Origin: Pseudonocardia oroxyli
GTDB taxonomy: Bacteria > Actinomycetota > Actinomycetes > Mycobacteriales > Pseudonocardiaceae
DNA: 64,000 bases
Assembly: GCF_900102195.1 (NCBI RefSeq)
Contig: NZ_FNBE01000001.1
Coordinates: 434,001-498,000, forward strand
Reading direction: 5' to 3'
How positions within the stretch are numbered: the first letter of the stretch is position 1; every line of letters starts with the position of its first letter. Positions 47,674 to 58,977 of this stretch are shown here, piece after piece. A model generated the notes under the pieces. The model was given only the letters and a program-made list of their open reading frames with translations. It did no database searches and had not been told where the DNA came from. Position numbers and translations under genes: made by a program.

Positions 47674-48915
47674 TCAGGGCGGCGGGGACAGGGGGTGGCG
47701 CTTCTCGAGCCAGGTCGCGATCTCGGCGGCGGCCAGCTCGTTGCCGGTGGGCTCGCCCGGGGCGAGGGCGGCGCCGAAGTGCAGGCCGCGGACCTTCGCC
47801 GTGGTCAGGTCGCCGCCGGGGATCGGCGCCGTGCCGAGCGCGGCGATCATGCGGGCCGAGTCCGCGGGGAAGGCGGCCTGGTCCCCGGTGAGCTCCAGGA
47901 ACAGCGTCGGGACCGTGACGCTCGGGGCGCACCGCACGAAGTCCGCGTTGCTCGACAGGCCGGACCAGGTGGAGAGCCAGGCCTCCGGGGTGGCGAGCCT
48001 GCCGAAGCCGACCTGGCCGTAGTCGATCAGGTCCGGGCGCGTGCCGAACAGCGAGCCGTACGGCCGCTCGCTCGGGTCCAGCGAGAGGTCGACGTTCCGC
48101 GGGTCGGCGTCCGTGCGGAACACCGTCATGATCGTGGGGGCGAGGGCGCGGCGCCGGTCCACGGCGGCGCCGGTGACCTTGTGCGCCTTCCGCGCCGCCG
48201 CGGTCGCGGCGAGGGACTCGCGCGCGAACGCGTCGAGCCGCTCGACCCGGGCGCGTTGCGCCGCGCGGTACTCGGCCAGGAAGTCCGCGCTGTACGAGGA
48301 GCTCGCGGGCGGCTCCGCGAACCCGTTGGCGGGGTTCCACGGGTCCAGTCCCGGGATCACCGACATCGGGTCCGCCTCGTCCGCGACCGAGGGGTCGATG
48401 CAGGCCAGCAGCAGCATGCCCTGGCCGGGGTGCGGGGCGAGGAAGATCGCGCCGTCCGCGACGGGCAGCTCGGCGCCCGCGAGGTCGACGGGCCGTCCGC
48501 CGGGGGTCGTGCCGATCCGGTCGGTCGACGCGGCCTGTTCCAGGTAGTAGGCGAACAGGGTGCCACCGCCGGAGTGCCCGAGCACCACGATGTCCTCGAA
48601 CCGCTCGCGCAGGAACACCTGCCCTGCCCCGACGTCGAGCAGGGCCTGTTCGTGCACCAGGTTCAGGTCGTTGTTCGGCGAGCGCGAGCCCTGGGTCCAC
48701 ACCGCCACCCCGGCCTGCAGCAACAGCGGCACGAGCGCGTGGTGCGTGACGTCCTGGCGCGGGTGCATCAGGCAGACCACGGTCCGGGCGCCGGGCACGG
48801 TGGCCAGCACGCCGCGGACCGTCGCGCCGTCCGCCGTGGTCAGCTCGTGGACGCTGGTGACGGTCGCGCCGGGTCGCTCGCCCGCCGCCAGGTAGCGCCC
48901 CTCCCCCAGCCTCAC
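47674..48915 (-). CDS. alpha/beta-hydrolase of catabolic cluster
   Basis: 413-residue hydrolase. The nucleophile elbow is VVLGHSGGGTLFAYYLEQA (Ser in GHSGG), preceded by VVCLMHPRQDVTHHALVPLLLQAGVAVWTQ. The probable acid and His are in LFLELTGDQAAFPAD and KVRGLHFGAALAPGEPTGNEL. An extended cap (about 180-310) binds the substrate. GTG at 48915 overlaps the stop of the 82-residue gene (GTGA). As last gene of the operon it may hydrolyse the ring-opened product, an amide or a thioester. Family substrate unknown. Confidence 0.8.
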   Translation of the reverse strand: MRLGEGRYLAAGERPGATVTSVHELTTADGATVRGVLATVPGARTVVCLMHPRQDVTHHALVPLLLQAGVAVWTQGSRSPNNDLNLVHEQALLDVGAGQVFLRERFEDIVVLGHSGGGTLFAYYLEQAASTDRIGTTPGGRPVDLAGAELPVADGAIFLAPHPGQGMLLLACIDPSVADEADPMSVIPGLDPWNPANGFAEPPASSSYSADFLAEYRAAQRARVERLDAFARESLAATAAARKAHKVTGAAVDRRRALAPTIMTVFRTDADPRNVDLSLDPSERPYGSLFGTRPDLIDYGQVGFGRLATPEAWLSTWSGLSSNADFVRCAPSVTVPTLFLELTGDQAAFPADSARMIAALGTAPIPGGDLTTAKVRGLHFGAALAPGEPTGNELAAAEIATWLEKRHPLSPPP

Positions 48916-49160
48916 GCGGACTCCACGCGCAGCGCGTCCTTGTCGTGCTGGGTGATCACGTCTCCCGGCGCGACGCCCGCGACGCAGGAGTACCAGACCG
49001 CGTGCCGGCACCCGGTCGCCCGCCGGTCGACGACGAGGGGCCCGTCCGCCCGGATCTCGAAGTACGGACCGATCTTGTCCACGACCACGGTGGGATCCTC
49101 GGCGGCGATCGTCGCGACGGCGGTGTTCTCCGGGATGTCGAGCACGTAGAGCGTGCTCAT
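48912..49160 (-). CDS. 82-residue protein of unknown function
   Basis: Starts MSTLYVLDIPENTAVATIAA and contains KIGPYFEIRADGPLVVDRRATGCRHAVWYSCVAGV with two Cys, then a C-terminal DVITQHDKDALRVESA. The ATG at 49160 has GGGGGAGAG just upstream; the frame is open further upstream without a better start. Its stop overlaps the hydrolase start, so it is translated with the catabolic genes. It may be a small subunit or accessory of the dioxygenase or hydrolase. I do not recognise the family. Confidence 0.65.
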   Translation of the reverse strand: MSTLYVLDIPENTAVATIAAEDPTVVVDKIGPYFEIRADGPLVVDRRATGCRHAVWYSCVAGVAPGDVITQHDKDALRVESA

Positions 49161-49230
49161 CGCTCTCCCCCGCTGCGCGGGCTCGGCGCTTCGCGCAGGC
49201 GCTGAGTCCATGATTCGCTCGCACGCTCGC

Positions 49231-49899
49231 TCATCGAACCACCGTCTCCCAGCCCGCCGTGCCTGCCGGCTCCGCCGGCTGCCATCCCGCGGCCCGGTCG
49301 ACGATCAGCTCGGCCTTGCGGGCCAACAGCTTGCCGAAGGTCGGCTCCGGCCGGTCCAGCACGTCGAGCAGGGCGTCGATGGTGAGGGTCGCGTCCAGGT
49401 CCTCCTGCGGCGTGACCGGCCGCATGGCCCGGGTGATCTCGAAGAAGTAGCCGTTCGGGTCGTGGGTGTAGATCGACTCGATCGTCTCGTGCTGGATCTG
49501 CATCTCGACGGGCCAGTCGCTCGCGTCCAGCCGGCGGCGGTACTCCAGCAGGTCCTCCTCGTTCTCCACGTGGATCGCGAGGTGCCGGGAGCGGACGAAG
49601 TACTCGGGGACGTCCGCGGCGAACTTCGCGTACGCGTCCCCCTTGTCCCCGCGGGTCGGGTTCTCCGTGCCGAAGTAGTAGAAGAACGCGATCCGGTCGT
49701 CGTTGCCGATGTCGAAGAAGAAGTGGATGAAGTCCGGGTGGTGCTCGGGACCCCAGCCCGCCGCGCAGATCGAGTGCACCACCGGGAAGCCGAGGACGTC
49801 CCGGTAGAAGCGCACCGTGGCCGCGGGGTCGAAGGTCGGGAAGGCGACGTGGTCCACGCCCCTCACCCGGTGCTCCAGCCCGCCTGTCGACTCTGTCAT
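49231..49899 (-). CDS. VOC-family (type I extradiol-like) dioxygenase
   Basis: 222-residue vicinal-oxygen-chelate protein with two beta-alpha-beta-beta-beta modules. Metal ligands can be assigned as His17 (GVDHVAFPT), a His in SRHLAIHVENEEDL and Glu in GYFFEITRAM, the 2-His-1-carboxylate set. HFFFDIGNDDRIAFFYYFG is the first module's end. It probably cleaves or oxygenates a ring intermediate. A C-terminal helical extension (about 170-222) is unusual. ATG at 49899 is leaderless with its own promoter between it and the upstream tetR. Confidence 0.8.
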   Translation of the reverse strand: MTESTGGLEHRVRGVDHVAFPTFDPAATVRFYRDVLGFPVVHSICAAGWGPEHHPDFIHFFFDIGNDDRIAFFYYFGTENPTRGDKGDAYAKFAADVPEYFVRSRHLAIHVENEEDLLEYRRRLDASDWPVEMQIQHETIESIYTHDPNGYFFEITRAMRPVTPQEDLDATLTIDALLDVLDRPEPTFGKLLARKAELIVDRAAGWQPAEPAGTAGWETVVR

Positions 49900-49906
49900 G
49901 ACACCG

Positions 49907-49936
49907 ACGTTACGCCGGTGTCGACGAATGAGTCAA
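49907..49936 (-). promoter_or_regulatory. promoter of the VOC-led genes
   Basis: TTGACT (-35, 49931-49936) and TAACGT (-10, 49907-49912) with an 18-nt spacer; the -10 is 7 nt before the ATG at 49899. The -35 overlaps the inverted repeat GTCAA-CAGT-TTGAC at 49932-49945. A 20-bp imperfect direct repeat (49921, 49941) spans it, suggesting regulator binding. Confidence 0.65.
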
Positions 49937-49953
49937 CAGTTTGACGAGTGAGT

Positions 49954-50646
49954 TCACAGATCGAGGATGCGCTCGAGATGGTCCAGGTCCTGGCGCAGCA
50001 GCTTCAACGCCGCGGCGGGCCCCTCGGCCTCCGGTGCCTGGTGGTCGGGGCGGACCAGCGCGGCGACGGCCATGTCCGCCAGCTGCGCCGTGACCCCCTC
50101 GGCCGTGTCGCGGCCGCCGGGGTGGAACCACCAGGCGACCCAGTTGCACATGCCGAGCACGCCGAGGGCGGCGACCCGCGCGTCGACGGGCCGGAACCGC
50201 CCGGCCCGGACGCCCTGCTCGATCACGCCGGCGATCGCCTTCAGCACGGCGCGCCTGCTGTCGTCGTACGCCGCGGTCAGCTCCTCGGGGAGCTCGGCCT
50301 CGGAGCGGATCAGCAGCCGGAACCGCTCGGGCTGGGTCACCCGCCGCCCGACGATCACCTCGACGATCCCGCGCAGCCGCCGGACGGGGTCCTCGTCCAC
50401 CTCGAACAGCGCGACGATCTCGTCCAGCGGGCCGTTCGTGACCTCGGTGACCAGCTTGGCGAGCAGCTCGTCCTTGCTCTTGACGTAGTAGTAGAGCGCG
50501 GGCCGGGTGATGCCCAGCGCGTCCGCGATGTCCTGCAGGCTGGTGCCCGCGAACCCGCGCTCCGCGAACAGCCGGGTGGCGTGCTCGTACAGCTCGTTCT
50601 CGACGAGCTCGCGCCGAGCGGTCCCCCTGCGTCCCGGTTCGCTCAT
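49954..50646 (-). CDS. TetR-family regulator of the catabolic cluster
   Basis: 230-residue regulator. The HTH (about 12-60) reads LYEHATRLFAERGFAGTSLQDIADALGITRPALYYYVKSKDELLAKLV. The C-terminal domain has the TetR_C pattern with VLGMCNWVAWWFHPGGRDTAEGV, as in KstR2/aromatic-degradation repressors. ATG overlaps the maleate isomerase stop by 4 bp, so it is co-expressed with the enzymes. Likely targets are the repeats at 49921-49960 and the twin 14-bp operators at 54462-54532. The inducer may be a CoA thioester. Confidence 0.9.
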   Translation of the reverse strand: MSEPGRRGTARRELVENELYEHATRLFAERGFAGTSLQDIADALGITRPALYYYVKSKDELLAKLVTEVTNGPLDEIVALFEVDEDPVRRLRGIVEVIVGRRVTQPERFRLLIRSEAELPEELTAAYDDSRRAVLKAIAGVIEQGVRAGRFRPVDARVAALGVLGMCNWVAWWFHPGGRDTAEGVTAQLADMAVAALVRPDHQAPEAEGPAAALKLLRQDLDHLERILDL

Positions 50647-51401
50647 GCGGGGATCGTAGGAGGTGGAGCCTGCGGAACCGACCCGCGGGCGCCGGTTCCG
50701 GACAGGAGCCGTCCCGCGCCGGGAAGCACCGGGTCCAGGCCGAGCCCGCGCAGCAGCGAGTAGGCACCGGCCGTGGCCGCGGAGAGTACGGGCAGCCCGA
50801 ACTCCTCCTCCGCGGGCGCGACCAGGTCCAGCGAGGGCATCTGGACGCAGGCGGAGATGACCAGCGCGTCGACCGCCAGGTCGAGGCCGCGGGCGGCCTC
50901 CAGCACGCGCGTGCCGGGGATGCAGCCGACCTCGGCGTTGTCCCCCACCTCCAGCGCGGCCCAGTCGACGACGTCGAACCCCTCCGCCCCGAGGTAGGCC
51001 ACCACCTGCTCGGCGAGCGGCCGCAGGTACGGGGTGACGAGCGCGATCCGCCGCGCGCCCAGCGCACGCAGCCCCTCCACGAGGGCCCCGGCGCTCGACC
51101 GGACCACCCCGGGGTACTGCTCCGCCACCGCCTTCTCGACCCGCTGGTGCTCCCCCGGGCCCTGCGCCATCAGGGCCACGAGGCAGGCGTAGAGCAGGGC
51201 GTCCACGCCGGCGTCCGCCAGCTCGTCGACGCAGCGCTCGCGCTGGCCGTTCATCGCCGCCAGCTCCTCCGGTGTCACGGAGTGCATCCGCATCCGGCTG
51301 GAGTGGAAGGAGAACGCCTCGGGGTGCCGAGCGAGCAGCGCCGGGATCTCCGTCTCGACGGTCACGTTCGAGCTGGGGACGACGAGTCCGATCCGCTTCA
51401 C
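50643..51401 (-). CDS. maleate cis-trans isomerase
   Basis: 252-residue Asp/Glu racemase-fold enzyme. The N-terminus RIGLVVPSSNVTVETEIPALL and SFHSSRMRMHSVTPEEL closely match bacterial maleate isomerases (NicE-like). The two catalytic Cys are Cys73 (LLYACLVALM) and Cys185 (VISACVQMPSLD). It converts maleate to fumarate for the TCA cycle. Its presence implies the pathway ends in maleate, as in nicotinate/2,5-dihydroxypyridine or some gentisate routes. GTG overlaps the AMP-ligase stop. Confidence 0.88.
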   Translation of the reverse strand: MKRIGLVVPSSNVTVETEIPALLARHPEAFSFHSSRMRMHSVTPEELAAMNGQRERCVDELADAGVDALLYACLVALMAQGPGEHQRVEKAVAEQYPGVVRSSAGALVEGLRALGARRIALVTPYLRPLAEQVVAYLGAEGFDVVDWAALEVGDNAEVGCIPGTRVLEAARGLDLAVDALVISACVQMPSLDLVAPAEEEFGLPVLSAATAGAYSLLRGLGLDPVLPGAGRLLSGTGARGSVPQAPPPTIPA

Positions 51402-52945
51402 GTCGCTACCTTCCGTGCGATGTCGGCCGCCAGGGCCTTCTTGTCGGTCTTGCCCACGAGCGTCCGCGGGATCTCGGGCAGGTGCTCGATCCGCTCGGGC
51501 CACTTGAACTTCGCGACGTCGAGCGCGGCGAAGTGCCGCTGCACCTCGTCCAGGGTCAGCTCGGCGCCGTCGACCACCACGTAGGCGCAGGTCCGCTCGC
51601 CCAGCCGCGGGTCCGGCATCGCGACGACGGCCACGGCGGTCACGCGCGGGTGGCGCAGCAGGAGCAGCTCCACCTCCTCGGCGTTGATCTTCTCGCCGCC
51701 GCGGTTGATGAGGTCCTTGATGCGGCCCTCGATGGAGACGAACCGCTCGCCGTCGATCTCGCGCCACGCGGCCAGGTCGCCGGTGCGGTAGAAGCCGTCG
51801 CCGGTGAAGGCGCGGGCGTTGTGCTCCGGGGCGTCGTAGTAGCCGGGCAGCGTGTACGGACCGCGACAGCACAGCTCGCCGACGCCGTCGGCGGGCTCCT
51901 CCGAGCCGGGTTCGAGGATCCGCACCTCGTCCCACCGGGACAACGGGGTCCCCACGGTCTCCAGCCGCGCCGCGCGCGGGGCGCCGGGGCGGGTCGTGAG
52001 GAACAGTCCCTCCCCCATCCCGAACAGCTGTCCGGACCAGATCCCGCGGGACTCGAGGGCGTCGAAGAGCCGGGGCGGGACCTTGGCGCCGGAGAGGATC
52101 ACCTGGGTCAGCGTCTTCGCGGCGGCGTCGAACTCCGGGTGGTCCAGGGCCCGGTAGTGCCCGTGCCCGAGCAGGACGTGGGTGGCGGCCTCGCGCGCCA
52201 GCAGCGGCAGCGACTCGTCGAGGTCGGGGGTGCCCAGGACCAGGCACGCGCCGACGCTGTGCGGCGCGTGCACGGCGCACACGACCCCGGCGTTGTGGAT
52301 GATCGGGATCAGGTGCGCCACCCGGGTGTCGGCGGTCCAGCCCCAGGACCGCGCGTACTCGGCGGCGTTGTACCAGTACTCGGCGTGCCGCCGCGGGATC
52401 ACCTTCGGGACGCCCGTGGTGCCGCCGGAGAGCTGGTAGACCCCGACGGCCCCCGGGTCGGCCTCGGGCAACGGCCCGGGGTCCGCCTCGGGCAGCTCGC
52501 CGAGGACCAGCAGCCTGCCGACCGCCTGCTCGCGGGCGAACGCGACGAGGTCGAACGTCAGCCCGGGCTCCACGAGGTGCGCCACCGCCCCGACCCGACG
52601 GCTGATCTCGCCGATCTCGTGCCCGCGGTGCGCGGCGAGCGTCGCGACGGGGACCAGCCCCGCCTTGAGCACCGCGTACCAGGCGACCACCGCCTCCAGC
52701 CGGTTCGTGACCTGGAACAACACCGGCCCGCCCGGCTCCAGCCCCAGCGCGAGCAGCCCGGCCGCGACCCGGTCGGAGCGCGCGTCGAGCTCGGCGTAGG
52801 TCAGCCGCCCGTCGAGGGCGACGACGGCGTCCCGGTCCGGGTGGCGCGCCGCGACCGCGCGGAACTCGGCCGGGATGGACCGGCTGCCCCACACCGCGCG
52901 GTAGCGCGCGACGGCGTCCGCGGGGTACTCGACGAGCGGGTTCAC
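51398..52945 (-). CDS. aryl acyl-AMP/CoA ligase (EntE/salicylyl-AMP ligase-like)
   Basis: 515-residue adenylate-forming ligase. Core motifs are VYQLSGGTTGVPKVIPRRH (A3), a LFGMGEGLF motif in place of the usual Y-G-x-x-E, GELCCRGPYTLPGYY, GFYRTGDLAAW (A7), GRIKDLINRGGEKINAEEVE (A8) and PRTLVGKTDKKAL with the terminal catalytic Lys. The closest type from memory is 2,3-dihydroxybenzoate- or salicylate-AMP ligase, so the substrate is likely an aromatic or heteroaromatic carboxylic acid. GTG overlaps the monooxygenase stop. It probably acts first, making the thioester hydroxylated by the FAD enzyme. Confidence 0.88.
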   Translation of the reverse strand: MNPLVEYPADAVARYRAVWGSRSIPAEFRAVAARHPDRDAVVALDGRLTYAELDARSDRVAAGLLALGLEPGGPVLFQVTNRLEAVVAWYAVLKAGLVPVATLAAHRGHEIGEISRRVGAVAHLVEPGLTFDLVAFAREQAVGRLLVLGELPEADPGPLPEADPGAVGVYQLSGGTTGVPKVIPRRHAEYWYNAAEYARSWGWTADTRVAHLIPIIHNAGVVCAVHAPHSVGACLVLGTPDLDESLPLLAREAATHVLLGHGHYRALDHPEFDAAAKTLTQVILSGAKVPPRLFDALESRGIWSGQLFGMGEGLFLTTRPGAPRAARLETVGTPLSRWDEVRILEPGSEEPADGVGELCCRGPYTLPGYYDAPEHNARAFTGDGFYRTGDLAAWREIDGERFVSIEGRIKDLINRGGEKINAEEVELLLLRHPRVTAVAVVAMPDPRLGERTCAYVVVDGAELTLDEVQRHFAALDVAKFKWPERIEHLPEIPRTLVGKTDKKALAADIARKVAT

Positions 52946-54438
52946 GCGATCACCACCAGGTCACACCGGCCGCTGAGCAGCCCGGCCGCCAGATCCTCCC
53001 GCAGCGCGGCGGGTCCCTCCACCGCGGTGAGCACCCCGCGTTCGAGCCGGATGCGCTCGGCCAGGTCGAGCCGGGTCAGCAGGGCGGGCCGGTCGGACGG
53101 ACCGGTGAGCAGCACGTCCCCGGTCACCGCGGCGACCACCGCGTCCCCCTCGGCCGACCACGGGTCGGCCAGGTCGGACGCGAGCGGGGGCAGCGCCGGC
53201 ACGTCGGTCCGACTCGCGAACACCCGCCCCCGGTGCTCCCCCGGCTGCGCGAGCACCCGGTCCACGATCCCGGGCTCGGACGCGGCCGGGACGGGCGAGG
53301 CCCCCGCGTACTGCGCGAACGCCGCCTCCACGACGTCCGGGGCGGTCTGGGCGAAGCGCTCCAGCGGCACGTTCCCCGCCCTCGACATGTAGGACACCAT
53401 GAGCCGCGCCGCGGGGAGCCCGAGCCGGCCGGGGAAGGACTCCCACCACAGCTGCGAGCGCCGGGCGAGCTCCTGCAACCGCGCGACGGCGGGGCGGCGG
53501 ACCGCCTCGTACCTCCCGAACGCCTCCGTCACCGACGACGCCTCCTGCAGCTCCGCGACCAGCGCGATCGCGTCCTCCATCGCCAGCTTGGTGCCGGACC
53601 CGACGGAGAAGTGCGCCGTGTGCGCGGCGTCGCCGAGCAGCACGGTGTTCCCGTCCGACCACCGCCCGCAGGAGACGGTGCGAAAGCGCAGCCAGCGCGT
53701 GCGGTTGCCGAGCAGCGGCTGCCCCCGCAGCTGCCCGGCGAAGGCCTGCTCCAGGAAGCGGAGCGAGACCTCGTCCGACCCGCCCTCGGCCACCTCGGCG
53801 CGGTCGAAGCCCGCACGCCGCCAGGTCTGCTCGTCGGTCTCGATGAGGAAGGTGGACCGGCCGCCGGAGTACGGGTAGGCGTGCGTGACGAACGTGCCGA
53901 ACTCCGTGGCGACCGGGGCGAACACCGCGTCGGGCAGGGGGAACTCCGTGCCGCACCACAGGTACAGACCCTTGCCGACCTCCACCGACTCGGCGAAGTC
54001 CCCGAGGGAGCGGGTCGCGCTGGACACGCCGTCCGCGGCGATCACCACGTCCGCGTCGAGCTCGCCCGCGGACCGGCGGCTCCCGAAGTCGAGCACGACC
54101 CCGGCCTTCTCCGCGTGCCGCTGCAAGATGGCGAGCAGCTCGGTGCGGGCCACGCCGATCAGGCGGTCGTTGCGCACGCGCACGACGTCCCCGCCCACGT
54201 CGAGCGTCATGTCGTGGCGCAGGCCGGCCGCAACCAGGTCCCGCAGGGTGTCCGGGTCCGCGGCCGCCAGCTTGCGCTGGGTGCCCGCGGCCAACCCGAC
54301 CCCGAACCCAAACGTGGTGTCCGGGTCCCCCTGCTCGTGGACGCGGACCTCGCAGGCGGGGTACGCGAGCTTCAGCAACCGGGCGGCGTAGAGCCCGCCC
54401 GGTCCTCCGCCCAGCACCGCGACGCGTCGTGGCTGCAT
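52942..54438 (-). CDS. FAD-dependent aromatic-CoA monooxygenase-like enzyme
   Basis: 498-residue flavoprotein hydroxylase. The FAD motif is GGGPGGLYAARLLKLAYP, followed by DPDTTFGFGVGLAAGTQRKL, which resembles salicylyl-CoA 5-hydroxylase and 2-aminobenzoyl-CoA monooxygenase N-domains. DVVIAADGVSSATR is the DG motif and NTVLLGDAAHTAHFSVGSGTKLAMEDA the second FAD motif. The C-terminal oxidoreductase half of the bifunctional relatives is absent. The ATG at 54438 has GGGAGGT 7 nt upstream. First gene of the cluster operon, reading away from hyuA. Confidence 0.85.
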   Translation of the reverse strand: MQPRRVAVLGGGPGGLYAARLLKLAYPACEVRVHEQGDPDTTFGFGVGLAAGTQRKLAAADPDTLRDLVAAGLRHDMTLDVGGDVVRVRNDRLIGVARTELLAILQRHAEKAGVVLDFGSRRSAGELDADVVIAADGVSSATRSLGDFAESVEVGKGLYLWCGTEFPLPDAVFAPVATEFGTFVTHAYPYSGGRSTFLIETDEQTWRRAGFDRAEVAEGGSDEVSLRFLEQAFAGQLRGQPLLGNRTRWLRFRTVSCGRWSDGNTVLLGDAAHTAHFSVGSGTKLAMEDAIALVAELQEASSVTEAFGRYEAVRRPAVARLQELARRSQLWWESFPGRLGLPAARLMVSYMSRAGNVPLERFAQTAPDVVEAAFAQYAGASPVPAASEPGIVDRVLAQPGEHRGRVFASRTDVPALPPLASDLADPWSAEGDAVVAAVTGDVLLTGPSDRPALLTRLDLAERIRLERGVLTAVEGPAALREDLAAGLLSGRCDLVVIA

Positions 54439-54461
54439 CGCCAACCTCCCTTTACGGTTAC

Positions 54462-54475
54462 GTCGACTATTCGAC
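54462..54475. promoter_or_regulatory. operator copy 1 of catabolic cluster
   Basis: GTCGACTATTCGAC: arms GTCGA/TCGAC around CTAT, 24 bp before the monooxygenase start codon. It is repeated in inverse orientation at 54519. Confidence 0.65.
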
Positions 54476-54518
54476 GTCACGGCAACCCAGGAAGTCAAGC
54501 TAGACATTCAGCTAGACT

Positions 54519-54532
54519 GTCGAATAGTCTAC
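54519..54532. promoter_or_regulatory. operator copy 2 of catabolic cluster
   Basis: GTCGAATAGTCTAC matches the complement of copy 1 at 13 of 14 positions. It overlaps a possible rightward -10 TAGTCT (54525-54530), which has TAGACA 18 nt upstream (54501-54506). Confidence 0.65.
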
Positions 54533-54571
54533 TCAACCGTCAGCCACCCACCGCGAAGGAGCGTGTGAGAC

Positions 54572-56680
54572 ATGGCCTATGTCATCGGAGTGGACGTGGG
54601 CGGCACGTTCACCGATGCCGTGCTGGACGACGGAACGGGCGACGCGGCCGGGACGGTGCTCGCCGCGAAGTCCCCGTCGACGCCCCCGGACTACTCCCGG
54701 GGTGTGCTCGACGTGCTGGGCCTGCTGGCCGAGCAGCTCGGTCGTCCTCTGCCGGAGATGCTCGCGGACACCCACCACATCGCGCACGGCACCACCTCCT
54801 CGCTGAACGCGCTGGTCATGGGGAACGTGCCCCCGGTCGGGTTCCTCACCACCAAGGGACACCGGGACTCGATCTTCATCATGAACGTCGAGGGCAGGTA
54901 CCTCGGCCGGTCCCCGCACGAGCTGCAGCACGTCCTCGGGCAGACCAAGGACCACGCGCTGCTGCCGAAGCGGCACGCGCTCGAGGTCACCGAGCGGATC
55001 GACCGGGACGGCACCGTCGTCGTCGGGCTGGACGAGGAGGAGGCCCGCGCGGCGATCCGCTCCCTGGTCGCGGACGGGGTCAGCGCCATCGCCGTGTCGC
55101 TGCTGTGGTCCTTCCGCAACCCGGTGCACGAGCGCCGGCTCCGCGAGCTGATCGCCGAGGAGGCCCCGGACCTGTTCGTGGCGCTGTCGTCCGAGGTCAG
55201 CCCCCGGATCCGGGAGTTCGCCCGCAACGCCACCACGATCATGTCGACCCAGATCGGGCCGGGTCTGCGGGACTACCTGGGCACCCTGGAGAGCGCGCTG
55301 CGCGAGAAGGGACTGACCGGGCCGCTGCTCGTCATGCAGTCCAACGGCGGCGCCGTCGCGGCGAAGGAGGCCCCTGCGGCCGCGATCAGCACGGTCGGGT
55401 CGGTCCTGACCGGCGGCGTCGTCGGGTCCGTGGCGCTGGGCCGCCAGCTCGGCCACCGCAACATCATCTCCACCGACGTCGGCGGCACGACGTTCCTGGC
55501 GGGCCTGGTCGTCGACGGCGAGCCGGTCCGGGACACCACCACGGTGATCAACCACCACCCGATCAACGTCCCGACCCTGCGGGTGGACGCGATCGGCTCC
55601 GGCGGCGGCGCCATCGCCTGGCTCGACGCGGGCGGCAACCTCCGCATCGGCCCGCGCAGCGCCCAGGCCGTGCCCGGCCCCGCCTGCTACGGGGCGGGCG
55701 GCACCGAGCCGACCAACACCGACGCGAACCTGGTGCTGGGCATCCTGCCGGAGAAGGGTCTGCTCGGCGGGCGCAAGCCGCTGTCGCTGGAGCTCGCGCG
55801 CCAGGCCATCGACACCCAGATCGCGAAGCCGCTGGGGCTGTCGGTCGAGGAGGCCGCGGCCGCCATCCACACGGTGCAGAACGCCCAGACCGGTGACCTG
55901 CTGCGCAAGACCGTCGTGGAGTCCGGCCACGATCCGCGCAACTTCGTGCTCTACGCCTTCGGCGGCGCAGGCCCCGCGCACTGCGCCGGCTACGCCGCGG
56001 AGGTCGGGTGCGAGACCGTCGTGGTCCCGCTCGGGCCCGTGGCCAGCGCGTTCTCCGCGTTCGGGCTCGCGTCCAGCGACATCGTGCTGGCCGCCGAGCT
56101 CTCCGACCCGACCGTCGTCCCCTTCGACCCGCAGCGGGCCGAGCGCAACTTCGCGGAGCTGGAGCAGCAGGTCCGCGCGGGGCTGGAGCGCCAGGGCCTC
56201 GCCTTCGAGAAGGTCGAGCTGCACCGCGAGATCGACATGCGGTACTCGATGCAGCTCGCCGAGGTCACCGCGCCCGTCGCGGGCGGCCCGCTGGGCATGC
56301 CGGAGATCGAGGAGGCGGCCGCCGCCTTCGAGAAGCGCTACGCCGAGCTGTACGGCAAGGACGCCGGGTTCCGCGAGGCCGGCATCCAGGCCATCACCTT
56401 CCGGGTCCGGGCCGTCGGCGTGCTGCCGTTCCGCCCCGAGCTCCCCGAGATGCCCGCCGCCACCGGGGAGGCGACCCCGTTCACCACCCGCCCGGTCTGC
56501 CTGGACGCCGCCACCGGCTACGTCGACACCCCGGTCTACGACTACCGCGAGCTGCGGGCGGGCCACGTGCTGGCGGGGCCCGCGATCGTCGAGGTGCCGA
56601 CCACCACCGTCGTCGTCCCCGGCGGGACCACGGGCACCGTCGACCACCTGGGCAACCTCACGATCAGGAGGACCGCATGA
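54572..56680 (+). CDS. hydantoinase/oxoprolinase subunit A family protein
   Basis: 702-residue ATP-dependent HyuA/acetone-carboxylase-beta-like subunit. The ASKHA phosphate loop is IGVDVGGTFTDAVLDDG at the N-terminus, with a second phosphate motif ISTDVGGTTFLAGLV and NFVLYAFGGAGPAHCAGYAAEVG further on. It phosphorylates a substrate carbonyl for hydrolysis or carboxylation together with subunit B. AAGGAG lies 11 nt before the ATG. It diverges from the monooxygenase gene over 133 bp with paired operators. The substrate could be a cyclic amide or a ketone. Confidence 0.92.
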   Translation: MAYVIGVDVGGTFTDAVLDDGTGDAAGTVLAAKSPSTPPDYSRGVLDVLGLLAEQLGRPLPEMLADTHHIAHGTTSSLNALVMGNVPPVGFLTTKGHRDSIFIMNVEGRYLGRSPHELQHVLGQTKDHALLPKRHALEVTERIDRDGTVVVGLDEEEARAAIRSLVADGVSAIAVSLLWSFRNPVHERRLRELIAEEAPDLFVALSSEVSPRIREFARNATTIMSTQIGPGLRDYLGTLESALREKGLTGPLLVMQSNGGAVAAKEAPAAAISTVGSVLTGGVVGSVALGRQLGHRNIISTDVGGTTFLAGLVVDGEPVRDTTTVINHHPINVPTLRVDAIGSGGGAIAWLDAGGNLRIGPRSAQAVPGPACYGAGGTEPTNTDANLVLGILPEKGLLGGRKPLSLELARQAIDTQIAKPLGLSVEEAAAAIHTVQNAQTGDLLRKTVVESGHDPRNFVLYAFGGAGPAHCAGYAAEVGCETVVVPLGPVASAFSAFGLASSDIVLAAELSDPTVVPFDPQRAERNFAELEQQVRAGLERQGLAFEKVELHREIDMRYSMQLAEVTAPVAGGPLGMPEIEEAAAAFEKRYAELYGKDAGFREAGIQAITFRVRAVGVLPFRPELPEMPAATGEATPFTTRPVCLDAATGYVDTPVYDYRELRAGHVLAGPAIVEVPTTTVVVPGGTTGTVDHLGNLTIRRTA

Positions 56681-58977
56681 CCATGCCGATCCCCGGCTCG
56701 GAGGCCTTCTCCAGCCGTCCCGTCGACCCCGACGAGCTGGCCCGCAGCCTGCCGTCGAGCCTCAAGGTCCACACGGTCACCCAGGAGCAGGTCGACGCGC
56801 TGGACCCGCTCACCTACGAGGTGATCCGGCACCGGCTCTGGTCGGTCACCGACGAGATGGGCGAGGCGCTCAAGCGCATGTCCGGCTCGCCGATCGTCAC
56901 GGACGCGAACGACTTCGACTTCGCCATCTCCGACGAGCTCGGCCAGGAGGTGCAGGTCGGCCTCTACAACACCATGCTCGTCGGCGCCGTGGACCTGGCG
57001 ATCTACTGGACGCTCCGCCACCGGGCGGAGAACCCCGGCATCGAGGCCGGCGACATGTTCCTCACCAACGACCCGTGGGTCGGCGGCGGACTGCACCAGA
57101 ACGACGTCATGGTCTACCAGCCCGTCTTCCACGAGGGGAGGCTGTTCGCCTGGACCAGTGCCATCGCGCACCAGCCGGACCTCGGCGGGGTGGGGCTGGG
57201 CTCCTTCTCCCCCGCCGCGCAGGACGTCTTCTCCGAGTCCCTGCCCACCCCGCCGGTCAAGGTCGTCCGCGGCGGACAGCTGCAGCGCGACGTCGCGGAC
57301 CTCTGGGTGCGCCGGTCCCGCGTCCCGATGCTGATCGGGCTGGACCTGCGCGCCAAGATCGGCGCCAACAACGTCGGCGGCGAGCGGCTGCACGCGCTCA
57401 TCGCGCAGTACGGCGCGGACACGGTGAAGGCCGTGATGAAGCGGATGATGTCGGACGCCGAACACCGCCTGCGCGGCAAGCTCGTGGGCATCCCCGACGG
57501 CAGCTGGACCGCCACCGGCTACCAGGACCAGTCCCACGAGGGCGACCGCGGCCTGCACAAGATCACCGTCACCACCACGAAGACCGGGGACCACCTGACC
57601 TTCGACTTCACCGGCACCGACCCGCAGGCCGGCGTCATCAACTGCACCTACGCGGGCATGCGCGGCGGGGTCATGCTGGCGCTGCTGCCGATCCTGGCCA
57701 ACGACATCCCCTGGTCCGCGGGCGGGCTCATGCGCTGCTTCGACCTGGTGACCGAGGAGGGGACGCTCAACAACGCGACCTTCCCCGCCGCCGTCGGGCG
57801 TGGGCCGATCGGCCCAGCCTGGCTGACCGGCAGCCTCATCGCGGAGTGTCTGTCCCAGATGCTCGACCGCGACCTGGAGCTGGGCCGCAACGTCCAGGCC
57901 ACCTGCTGCGGCACGTGGGACACCGCCGTCATCGCGGGGCTGGACGAACGCGGCGAGCAGCCCGCCCCCTTCCTGTCGATCATGATGGAGCCGATGGCGG
58001 GCGGCTACGGCGCCCGCCCGCACGCGGACGGCATGGACACCGGCGGGCTGTTCTGCATCCCGATGGGCCGGGTGCCGGACGTCGAGATGACCGAGTTCCT
58101 CTACCCGCTGCTCACCCTGTGGCGGCGCGAGGAGCCGGACTCCGGCGGCCCCGGGCGACAGCGCGGCGGGCTCGGCGCGTCCATCGCGTTCACCCCGCAC
58201 GGCACGTCGATCCCGATGGGCCTGGTCCTGGCGAGCGCGGGCAAGGCGGTGGCGCAGAACGCGGGCCTGTCCGGCGGGCACCCGGGCAACTCGGGCCTCG
58301 ACGTCGTCGCGCGGCAGAGCCGGGTCGCCGAGATCCTCGCGTCGGGGAGGCTGCCGTCCTCACTCGCCGAGGTCTCGGACACCCTCGAACCCGGTCAGAA
58401 CTACGCGTCCAGCCACCTGGCGCCCGGCGAGGTCTTCTCGATGACCTGGCAGGGCGGCGGCGGGTACGGCGACCCGCTCGCCCGCGACCCCGAGGCGGTT
58501 GCCGGGGACGTCCGTGAGGAGAAGATCACCCGCGCCGCCGCGAAGGACGTCTACGGCGTGGTGCTCGGCGAGGCCGGGATCGACCCCGGGGCCACGGCGG
58601 CGGCTCGCGCGCAGGCCAAGGCGGCCAGGCGGGACCGCTCGCGGGTGACCGGCGAGACCCGCGGCAAGGCGGACGGCGGCACCCGCCGCATCGACGACAA
58701 CCTCGTCGAGGTGAACGGCGCCATCGCCTGCGCCCACTGCCGGGAGGTGCTCGGCGACTCCGCCGAGCCCGGGGCACTGGCCCTCGGCGTGTACGATGGC
58801 CCACCCACGGACGCGGGCCCGCAGATCACCGCGACCGCGGCGGACTACGTGGACGCGGACGTGGTGTTCCGCCAGTACAGCTGCCCGAGCTGCTGGACCG
58901 CCCTCTCGTCCGCGGTCGTCCCGGCCGACCACCCGGACCTCGGCACCACCCTCGGCCGCCTCACCGTCACCCCCTGA
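56677..58977 (+). CDS. hydantoinase/oxoprolinase subunit B fused to a four-Cys domain
   Basis: 766-residue HyuB-like subunit. Family blocks include FDFAISDELGQEVQVGLYNTM, GDMFLTNDPWVGGGLHQNDV, VGGERLHALI and GQRGGLG-type GRQRGGLGASIAF. After the usual end of HyuB (about 600) a linker with many Ala/Arg leads to a C-terminal domain holding CAHC (Cys685, Cys688) and CPSC (Cys736, Cys739). This probable zinc site resembles the small gamma subunit of acetone carboxylase. That hints at carboxylation rather than simple hydrolysis. ATG overlaps the hyuA stop by 4 bp. Confidence 0.88.
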   Translation: MTMPIPGSEAFSSRPVDPDELARSLPSSLKVHTVTQEQVDALDPLTYEVIRHRLWSVTDEMGEALKRMSGSPIVTDANDFDFAISDELGQEVQVGLYNTMLVGAVDLAIYWTLRHRAENPGIEAGDMFLTNDPWVGGGLHQNDVMVYQPVFHEGRLFAWTSAIAHQPDLGGVGLGSFSPAAQDVFSESLPTPPVKVVRGGQLQRDVADLWVRRSRVPMLIGLDLRAKIGANNVGGERLHALIAQYGADTVKAVMKRMMSDAEHRLRGKLVGIPDGSWTATGYQDQSHEGDRGLHKITVTTTKTGDHLTFDFTGTDPQAGVINCTYAGMRGGVMLALLPILANDIPWSAGGLMRCFDLVTEEGTLNNATFPAAVGRGPIGPAWLTGSLIAECLSQMLDRDLELGRNVQATCCGTWDTAVIAGLDERGEQPAPFLSIMMEPMAGGYGARPHADGMDTGGLFCIPMGRVPDVEMTEFLYPLLTLWRREEPDSGGPGRQRGGLGASIAFTPHGTSIPMGLVLASAGKAVAQNAGLSGGHPGNSGLDVVARQSRVAEILASGRLPSSLAEVSDTLEPGQNYASSHLAPGEVFSMTWQGGGGYGDPLARDPEAVAGDVREEKITRAAAKDVYGVVLGEAGIDPGATAAARAQAKAARRDRSRVTGETRGKADGGTRRIDDNLVEVNGAIACAHCREVLGDSAEPGALALGVYDGPPTDAGPQITATAADYVDADVVFRQYSCPSCWTALSSAVVPADHPDLGTTLGRLTVTP

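Follow-up and report, generated by a model that had tools for sequence, protein, structure and literature searches.

A cluster of nine genes in a 64,000-nucleotide window of the high-GC, 6.1-Mb genome of Pseudonocardia oroxyli may be a TetR-controlled catabolic regulon, in which a benzenoid 2-hydroxyaryl (salicylate-type) acid would be broken down to maleate and then to fumarate; we put the probability of this reading at about 0.5. The window is the whole stretch of DNA that was analysed, and the cluster occupies its positions 47674-58977. In the proposed pathway, an adenylating ligase would convert the acid to its acyl-AMP/CoA ester, and an FAD enzyme would hydroxylate the ring para to the 2-OH to give a gentisyl (2,5-dihydroxybenzoyl)-type hydroquinone, from which a hot-dog thioesterase would then free the acid in Proteobacteria. 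A dioxygenase of the VOC fold, together with an 82-residue MmoB/DmpM-like coupling subunit, would cleave the ring next to the carboxyl and yield a maleylpyruvate-type diketo acid; a large alpha/beta hydrolase would split this acid (or a CoA ester or analogue) into maleate and pyruvate, and maleate isomerase would turn maleate into fumarate. HyuAB, a putative ATP-dependent and biotin-free enzyme resembling the carboxylases of acetophenone and acetone, would most likely convert a phenol or ketone precursor into the aryl acid. The scheme leaves no core gene without a step, since ring cleavage of the gentisate type and subsequent C-C hydrolysis would yield maleate directly. Each reaction, the order of the steps, the substrate and the binding of the TetR protein to its site are what we infer.

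The gene identities, predicted folds, catalytic residues, conservation and a shared operator-like site are directly supported. The VOC protein was scanned against 84,980 species genomes, and the best 80 loci were kept as the basis of the locus counts. These loci span Pseudonocardia, Amycolatopsis, Prauserella, Actinomycetospora, Klenkia, Geodermatophilus, Gordonia, Williamsia, Rhodococcus, Nocardia, Streptomyces and others, and most of them have the whole nine-gene set around the VOC gene, with identities that often lie between 50 and 90%. The gene set, which the earlier note on this DNA had suggested seeking in other genomes, recurred in dozens of species of many actinobacterial genera and in several arrangements. 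A TetR-FAD hydroxylase-ligase-hyuB-hyuA arm divergent from isomerase-VOC-82-residue protein-hydrolase was found in 29 loci, the order of the window in 21, and hyuA-hyuB placed ahead on one strand in five more, while Klenkia and single loci showed still other gene orders. In 79 of 80 loci the VOC gene shares 4 bp with the gene of the 82-residue protein, and the same kind of overlap joins the latter to the hydrolase gene in 72 of 79. The grouping is not due to chance, given this recurrence and the conserved junctions, and linkage that persists through rearrangement is strong evidence for one function. HyuA lay within reach of the VOC gene in 65 of the 80 loci; when 13 loci without a nearby HyuA were checked, eight of the genomes carried a 75-87% identical HyuA elsewhere, in one case within a second copy of the cluster. 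Proteobacteria carry a reduced core without HyuAB and with a hot-dog thioesterase gene beside the hydroxylase. Phylum-wide sampling with the VOC protein yielded remote homologues only, so the close VOC family is patchy among actinobacteria.

The two arms of the cluster also look co-regulated, because the palindrome between them matches sites found before hyuA, FAD hydroxylase and isomerase genes elsewhere. With no more than one mismatch allowed, the conserved 16-bp form, CGTCGANTANTCGACG, was counted 49 times in the start zones (360 bp at the starts of these three genes; 57 kb in all) and once in 1.49 Mb elsewhere. The resulting enrichment of about 1300-fold is descriptive, as the palindrome was derived from the same zones, and the count elsewhere is a fair background. 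Sites with up to two mismatches were present in 53 of 77 loci. The copy in the window is exact, lies 22 bp ahead of the likely hydroxylase start, and is the sole match there at up to three mismatches (chance expectation 0.21). In the Rhodococcus-type order the site stands separately upstream of hyuA and of the isomerase operon, and in Variovorax a similar palindrome precedes the hydrolase gene. The earlier note had let its proposal depend on co-regulation of the two arms, and this check by sequence spoke in favor of it. The palindrome is presumed to be the operator of the TetR protein. Another palindrome, TAGACT-N7-AGTCTA, was seen in the window only and was dropped. Two other exact matches in the genome (C6 and C21) were unconvincing as regulon members, one being inside a transketolase-like gene and one near no recognisable catabolic gene; a site with one mismatch (L178), close to genes for an aldo-keto reductase and an MFS protein, marks no more than a candidate member. 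A P450 gene directly downstream of the cluster is preceded by a two-mismatch copy at L069 12208 and L082 12213, so that in some Pseudonocardia the regulon may include a P450. An exact copy also occurs on the Mycobacterium avium plasmid pP7a (L136:6594).

The two entry enzymes point to an aryl acid. The ligase matched salicylate-AMP ligase 5wm2 (E=4e-94), PchD (8e-87) and EntE/DhbE (2e-75) in the PDB. It has the AMP-binding fold and keeps the HN motif, which we take from DhbE/EntE to mark the aryl-acid pocket, as in aryl-acid (salicylate/2,3-dihydroxybenzoate) AMP ligases. This motif reads HNAGVVC in the window and HNAG[IV]xC or HNLNMGC across the family; a Cys at the salicylate position is found in the clade that accompanies HyuAB and in L131/L134. 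The hydroxylase matched the salicylyl-CoA 5-hydroxylase/oxidoreductase model NF006101 over residues 28-407 (E=5e-89) and VioD in the PDB (3e-36). Its score of 299 bits, with only the N-terminal FAD domain matching, leaves it outside that equivalog, whose cut-off is 1078. On the plasmid pP7a (L136 14286-16283, L151), an aryl-CoA-type hydroxylase that is extended at its C-terminus has been annotated as a heme-binding protein.

The ring-opening step would fall to the VOC protein, since the gentisate 1,2-dioxygenase model TIGR02272 found no match in the host genome, and the cluster holds no cupin enzyme of this kind. Type I extradiol dioxygenases share the signature H-x(5,7)-[LIVMF]-Y-x2-D-P-x-G-x(2,3)-E, a 2-His-1-Glu metal triad and second-shell His, His and Tyr residues. 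The VOC protein carries this signature as QHETIESIYTHDPNGYFFE, and H17, H59, H106, H137, Y144 and E154 were invariant in 27 sequences from two phyla. With equivalence assigned by spacing, these would make up the full residue set, H17/H106/E154 as the metal triad and H59, H137 and Y144 beside it. The 82-residue protein, which the earlier note had listed as unknown, was modelled by AlphaFold2 with a pLDDT (predicted local distance difference test) of 94.7. Its leading Foldseek matches in the PDB were all MmoB, T4moD and phenol hydroxylase regulatory proteins, the effectors of methane, phenol and toluene monooxygenases (probability 1.00, template modelling (TM) score up to 0.75), and the model thus has the MmoB/DmpM/T4moD effector fold. 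Against Pfam PF02406 it scored 17.1 bits, with a gathering cut-off of 25, and 29 of 47 homologues gave weak matches. The two proteins are fused as one polypeptide in three beta-proteobacteria (Cupriavidus, Variovorax and Caballeronia; L131-L133), their genes are adjacent in Pseudosulfitobacter and Tistrella, and the pair is intact in the rearranged M. avium cluster. Because of this fold and of the fusion and adjacency, the 82-residue protein is presumed to be a subunit of the dioxygenase. The complete extradiol residue set, the effector fold and the fusion are new here, as is the probable zinc domain at the end of HyuB described below. On pP7a the pair is accompanied by a P450 and a VanB-type reductase.

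The exit steps would be carried out by the hydrolase and the isomerase. The isomerase matched maleate isomerase 2xec, presumably the Nocardia farcinica enzyme, with E=1.8e-103 and 4fq7 with 9.8e-63, and it keeps both Cys in the motifs YACLVA and SACVQMPS, as expected of a maleate isomerase with its two catalytic Cys in the Asp/Glu racemase fold. The hydrolase belongs to a distinct family of 400 residues, in which S110 of the nucleophile motif G-[HN]-S110-G-G, H374, H46 and an RTDAD motif were invariant in 30 aligned homologues; its profile found only weak generic alpha/beta hydrolase matches in the PDB. Remote relatives adjoin a homogentisate dioxygenase gene in R. oxybenzonivorans and a cupin gene in R. 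opacus PD630. On Sphingobium plasmids (L147, L153), remote VOC and alpha/beta hydrolase genes are conserved with P450s, LeuCD, a CaiB-type CoA transferase and HMG-CoA lyase. The combination of LeuCD, CoA transferase and HMG-CoA lyase would suit a maleate- or citraconate-type product, and this Sphingobium cluster may encode ring cleavage with a citraconate-type acid as its end product. For the cluster of the window, the results favored the earlier suggestion of thioester chemistry combined with a maleate end product, in a conserved and apparently co-regulated pathway.

HyuA and HyuB keep the motifs of their families. The ATP motifs of HyuA (DVGGTFTD, DVGGT, PGP) and the D-H-D-H metal-site motifs of HyuB (DANDFD, HQND, AHQPDLGG) are intact, with the motifs of Hyu-type enzymes taken as in PMC8453981. 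The last 118 residues of HyuB (about 58621-58977) carry CxxC...CPxC, and the top five Foldseek matches of their predicted fold in the PDB were ApcB and acetone carboxylase gamma (probability 0.91-1.00), the remainder being noise. This probable C-terminal zinc domain of the acetone/acetophenone carboxylase type suggests that HyuAB may be carboxylase-like. HyuAB goes together with a single ligase clade (HNAG[IV]xC) and does not occur in proteobacterial and some actinobacterial clusters; it therefore appears to serve substrate supply or an actinobacteria-specific step. The earlier note had offered a cyclic-amide or a carboxylation step for HyuAB: the zinc domain makes the former less likely than a carboxylase-type role.

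The same note had favored a heteroaromatic or N-containing ring substrate. In such a scheme, an anthranilate-type (2-amino) acid or 3-hydroxypicolinate would give maleamoylpyruvate or N-oxalylmaleamate, the amide or lactam would be opened by the hydrolase or HyuAB, and maleate would go on to fumarate. The 2-aminobenzoyl-CoA monooxygenase probably belongs to the family of the hydroxylase, caprolactamase is the nearest NCBIfam model of HyuA, HyuAB tracks one ligase clade as if bound to one substrate class, and 3-hydroxypicolinate is an analogue of salicylate. However, the conserved set has no amidase, deformylase or decarboxylase, HyuAB is dispensed with in the clusters named above, and its probable zinc domain is of the carboxylase type. 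The scores of HyuAB, 506 bits for CapA and 219 for CapB, both with a cut-off of 1000, together with the extra zinc domain, place it outside the caprolactamases. R. ruber Chol-4 did not grow on 2-aminobenzoate (PMC6498646). The ligase and hydroxylase are closest to enzymes of salicylate and 2,3-dihydroxybenzoate activation and of salicylyl-CoA, and the neighbors of the cluster are benzenoid catabolism genes: aromatic-acid-type MFS transporters (AAHS-type genes in 16 loci), P450s adjoining several loci, and one gentisate-type operon. We consider an N-containing substrate unlikely, and judged from the sequences a benzene-ring acid fits better than an N-heterocycle. The gentisate-type operon, on a Streptomyces chartreusis plasmid (L138 6119-8717), consists of a cupin, an FAH hydrolase and a mycothiol-dependent maleylpyruvate isomerase and lies just upstream of the isomerase-VOC-82-residue protein-hydrolase genes.

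A route from 2-hydroxyaryl ketones is less likely still. HyuAB would here carboxylate a 2-hydroxyacetophenone-type ketone, the ligase would activate the beta-keto acid, and a thiolase from outside the cluster would release salicylyl-CoA for hydroxylation and ring cleavage. The resemblance of the zinc domain to ApcB, the single predicted operon that holds HyuAB, ligase and hydroxylase in 29 loci, and thiolase genes near a few loci are in line with it, but no thiolase is conserved, the HN motif marks a direct aryl-acid ligase, and Proteobacteria run ligase and hydroxylase without HyuAB. It is quite improbable that the true partner of the MmoB-like protein is a diiron monooxygenase encoded elsewhere in the genome, with the protein only co-transcribed here: the host does encode two ordinary MmoB_DmpM proteins away from the cluster, and the family is not known to work with enzymes other than diiron ones, but the VOC fusion in three genera, the overlap with the VOC gene, the pairing even in M. 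avium and the lack of any diiron hydroxylase gene among the clustered genes speak against it.

Along with the salicylate-type pathway, we tentatively propose, at somewhat worse than even odds, that the MmoB/DmpM-type protein is a true effector/coupling subunit of a mononuclear-iron VOC ring-cleaving dioxygenase. The effector fold would then be in use outside diiron monooxygenases for the first time, at the centre of a new pathway, aerobic and CoA-dependent, that takes 2-hydroxyaryl acids to maleate and fumarate; in actinobacteria its substrate would come from HyuAB acting as an ATP-dependent carboxylase.

Several observations weigh against the salicylate-type pathway. The VOC/hydrolase pair has no characterised homologue here, and gentisate-type cleavage is thus an analogy. 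The thioesterase is absent from the actinobacterial clusters, and the C-terminal ~130 residues of the hydroxylase (52942-53330), which could be what is left of the oxidoreductase domain in the bifunctional salicylyl-CoA hydroxylase, matched no family. The HyuB zinc domain is moderate by fold (Foldseek E no better than 0.011, TM about 0.5) and weak by sequence (ApcB profile E=0.035 in the PDB; Acetone_carb_G in 3 of 16 members, best 0.0037), and among NCBIfam models HyuA scored higher with caprolactamase than with acetophenone carboxylase. In addition, R. ruber Chol-4 (PMC6498646) and R. opacus M213 (PMC4988695) did not grow on salicylate; the full cluster was seen in other strains named R. ruber and R. 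opacus (L104, L124). Since these related rhodococci fail to grow on it, the HyuAB type of cluster may act on something other than plain salicylate, possibly on a substituted or methoxylated 2-hydroxyaryl acid.

The cluster differs from the known systems that it resembles. The CoA-dependent salicylate pathway sdg of Streptomyces sp. WA46 uses salicylyl-AMP ligase, salicylyl-CoA 5-hydroxylase and gentisate 1,2-dioxygenase. Both systems have an adenylating ligase and an FAD salicylyl-CoA-type hydroxylase leading to a gentisate-type hydroquinone, but here the VOC and MmoB-like proteins, alpha/beta hydrolase and maleate isomerase replace the cupin gentisate dioxygenase, maleylpyruvate isomerase and fumarylpyruvate hydrolase, and HyuAB is added. 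In the gentisate pathway with maleylpyruvate hydrolysis, the hydrolase known for this step is an FAH-type enzyme, and malate is usually formed from the maleate by hydration; the conversion of maleylpyruvate to maleate and pyruvate would be shared, whereas the cluster has an alpha/beta hydrolase and a cis-trans isomerase. The nic/pic/hpd pathways of 2,5-dihydroxypyridine likewise end with an alpha/beta hydrolase and maleate isomerase, but the cluster lacks their 2,5-dihydroxypyridine dioxygenase and maleamate amidohydrolase and has ligase/CoA chemistry. Multicomponent diiron monooxygenases with MmoB/DmpM/T4moD effectors share the predicted fold of the 82-residue protein, whose presumed partner here is a VOC dioxygenase, fused to it in beta-proteobacteria, instead of a diiron hydroxylase. 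The acetophenone and acetone carboxylases (ApcABCD, AcxABC) share HyuA/HyuB-type subunits and, probably, an ApcB/AcxC-type zinc domain, whereas the cluster has two genes only, the zinc domain being fused to the HyuB C-terminus, and scores far below the Apc equivalog cut-offs. The salicylyl-CoA hydroxylase step of the sdg-type pathway is also described in PMC13215587. In agreement with the earlier note, which knew of no described pathway with this exact set, no published description of the cluster was found in the open-access literature (subscription journals were outside the scope) under the gene set, salicylyl-CoA, maleate isomerase, MmoB with extradiol enzymes or acetophenone carboxylase.

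As shown in Table 1, all the genes that had been named for an operon divergent from HyuA/HyuB were present with the families given to them. Seven genes lie on the minus strand in the order FAD hydroxylase, ligase, maleate isomerase, TetR, VOC, 82-residue protein and hydrolase, and they diverge from hyuA and hyuB across a common intergenic region. Each junction from the FAD hydroxylase to the TetR gene overlaps by 4 bp, as does that between the 82-residue gene and the hydrolase gene, whose GTG start overlaps the stop of the former. The hydroxylase probably starts at the internal ATG at 54438 rather than at 54507. A single protein from the 516-residue open reading frame 47674-49224 was rejected, its first 100 residues being a frame-shifted reading of the 82-residue gene. 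At the VOC/82-residue junction, which overlaps in the homologous loci, the window has a gap of ~70 bp (49161-49230) with GATGAGC repeated at both ends, as if a local duplication or insertion had occurred in the P. oroxyli genome alone.

Table 1 Genes and sites of the cluster, in positions of the window
Feature	Position	Strand	Basis or remark
FAD-dependent aryl-CoA hydroxylase	52942-54438	-	first gene of the operon; closest to salicylyl-CoA 5-hydroxylase
Aryl-acid adenylating ligase (acyl-AMP / CoA), salicylate type	51398-52945	-	PDB matches and HNAGVVC motif
Maleate cis-trans isomerase	50643-51401	-	GTG start; match to 2xec
TetR-family regulator	49954-50646	-	TetR_N and TetR_C_24
One-domain type I extradiol-type (VOC) dioxygenase	49231-49899	-	Glyoxalase/dioxygenase Pfam 1e-15
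82-residue MmoB/DmpM-like protein, presumed VOC partner	48912-49160	-	AlphaFold2 and Foldseek
413-residue alpha/beta hydrolase, presumed ring-fission product hydrolase	47674-48915	-	alignment of 30 homologues; remote homologues beside ring-cleavage dioxygenases
HyuA, ATP-binding subunit of ATP-dependent carboxylase/hydrolase	54572-56680	+	Hydantoinase_A 2.5e-73
HyuB with probable C-terminal acetone/acetophenone-carboxylase-type zinc domain	56677-58977	+	Hydantoinase_B 3e-132
Operator-like palindrome ACGTCGACTATTCGACGT (18 bp)	54460-54477		between the two arms
Second palindrome TAGACTGTCGAATAGTCTA	54513-54531		holds a degenerate copy of the operator-like site

The module is found in many soil and clinical actinobacteria, including Rhodococcus, Nocardia, Gordonia, Amycolatopsis, Pseudonocardia and others, yet no account of it turned up in the open-access papers searched. 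The proposed pathway would place the enzyme filed as maleate isomerase (2xec) in a metabolic context, and both a VOC family and a gene labelled 'unknown' would gain a function. The MmoB fold would have a partner other than a diiron enzyme, and Hyu-type carboxylases would have a possible new role.

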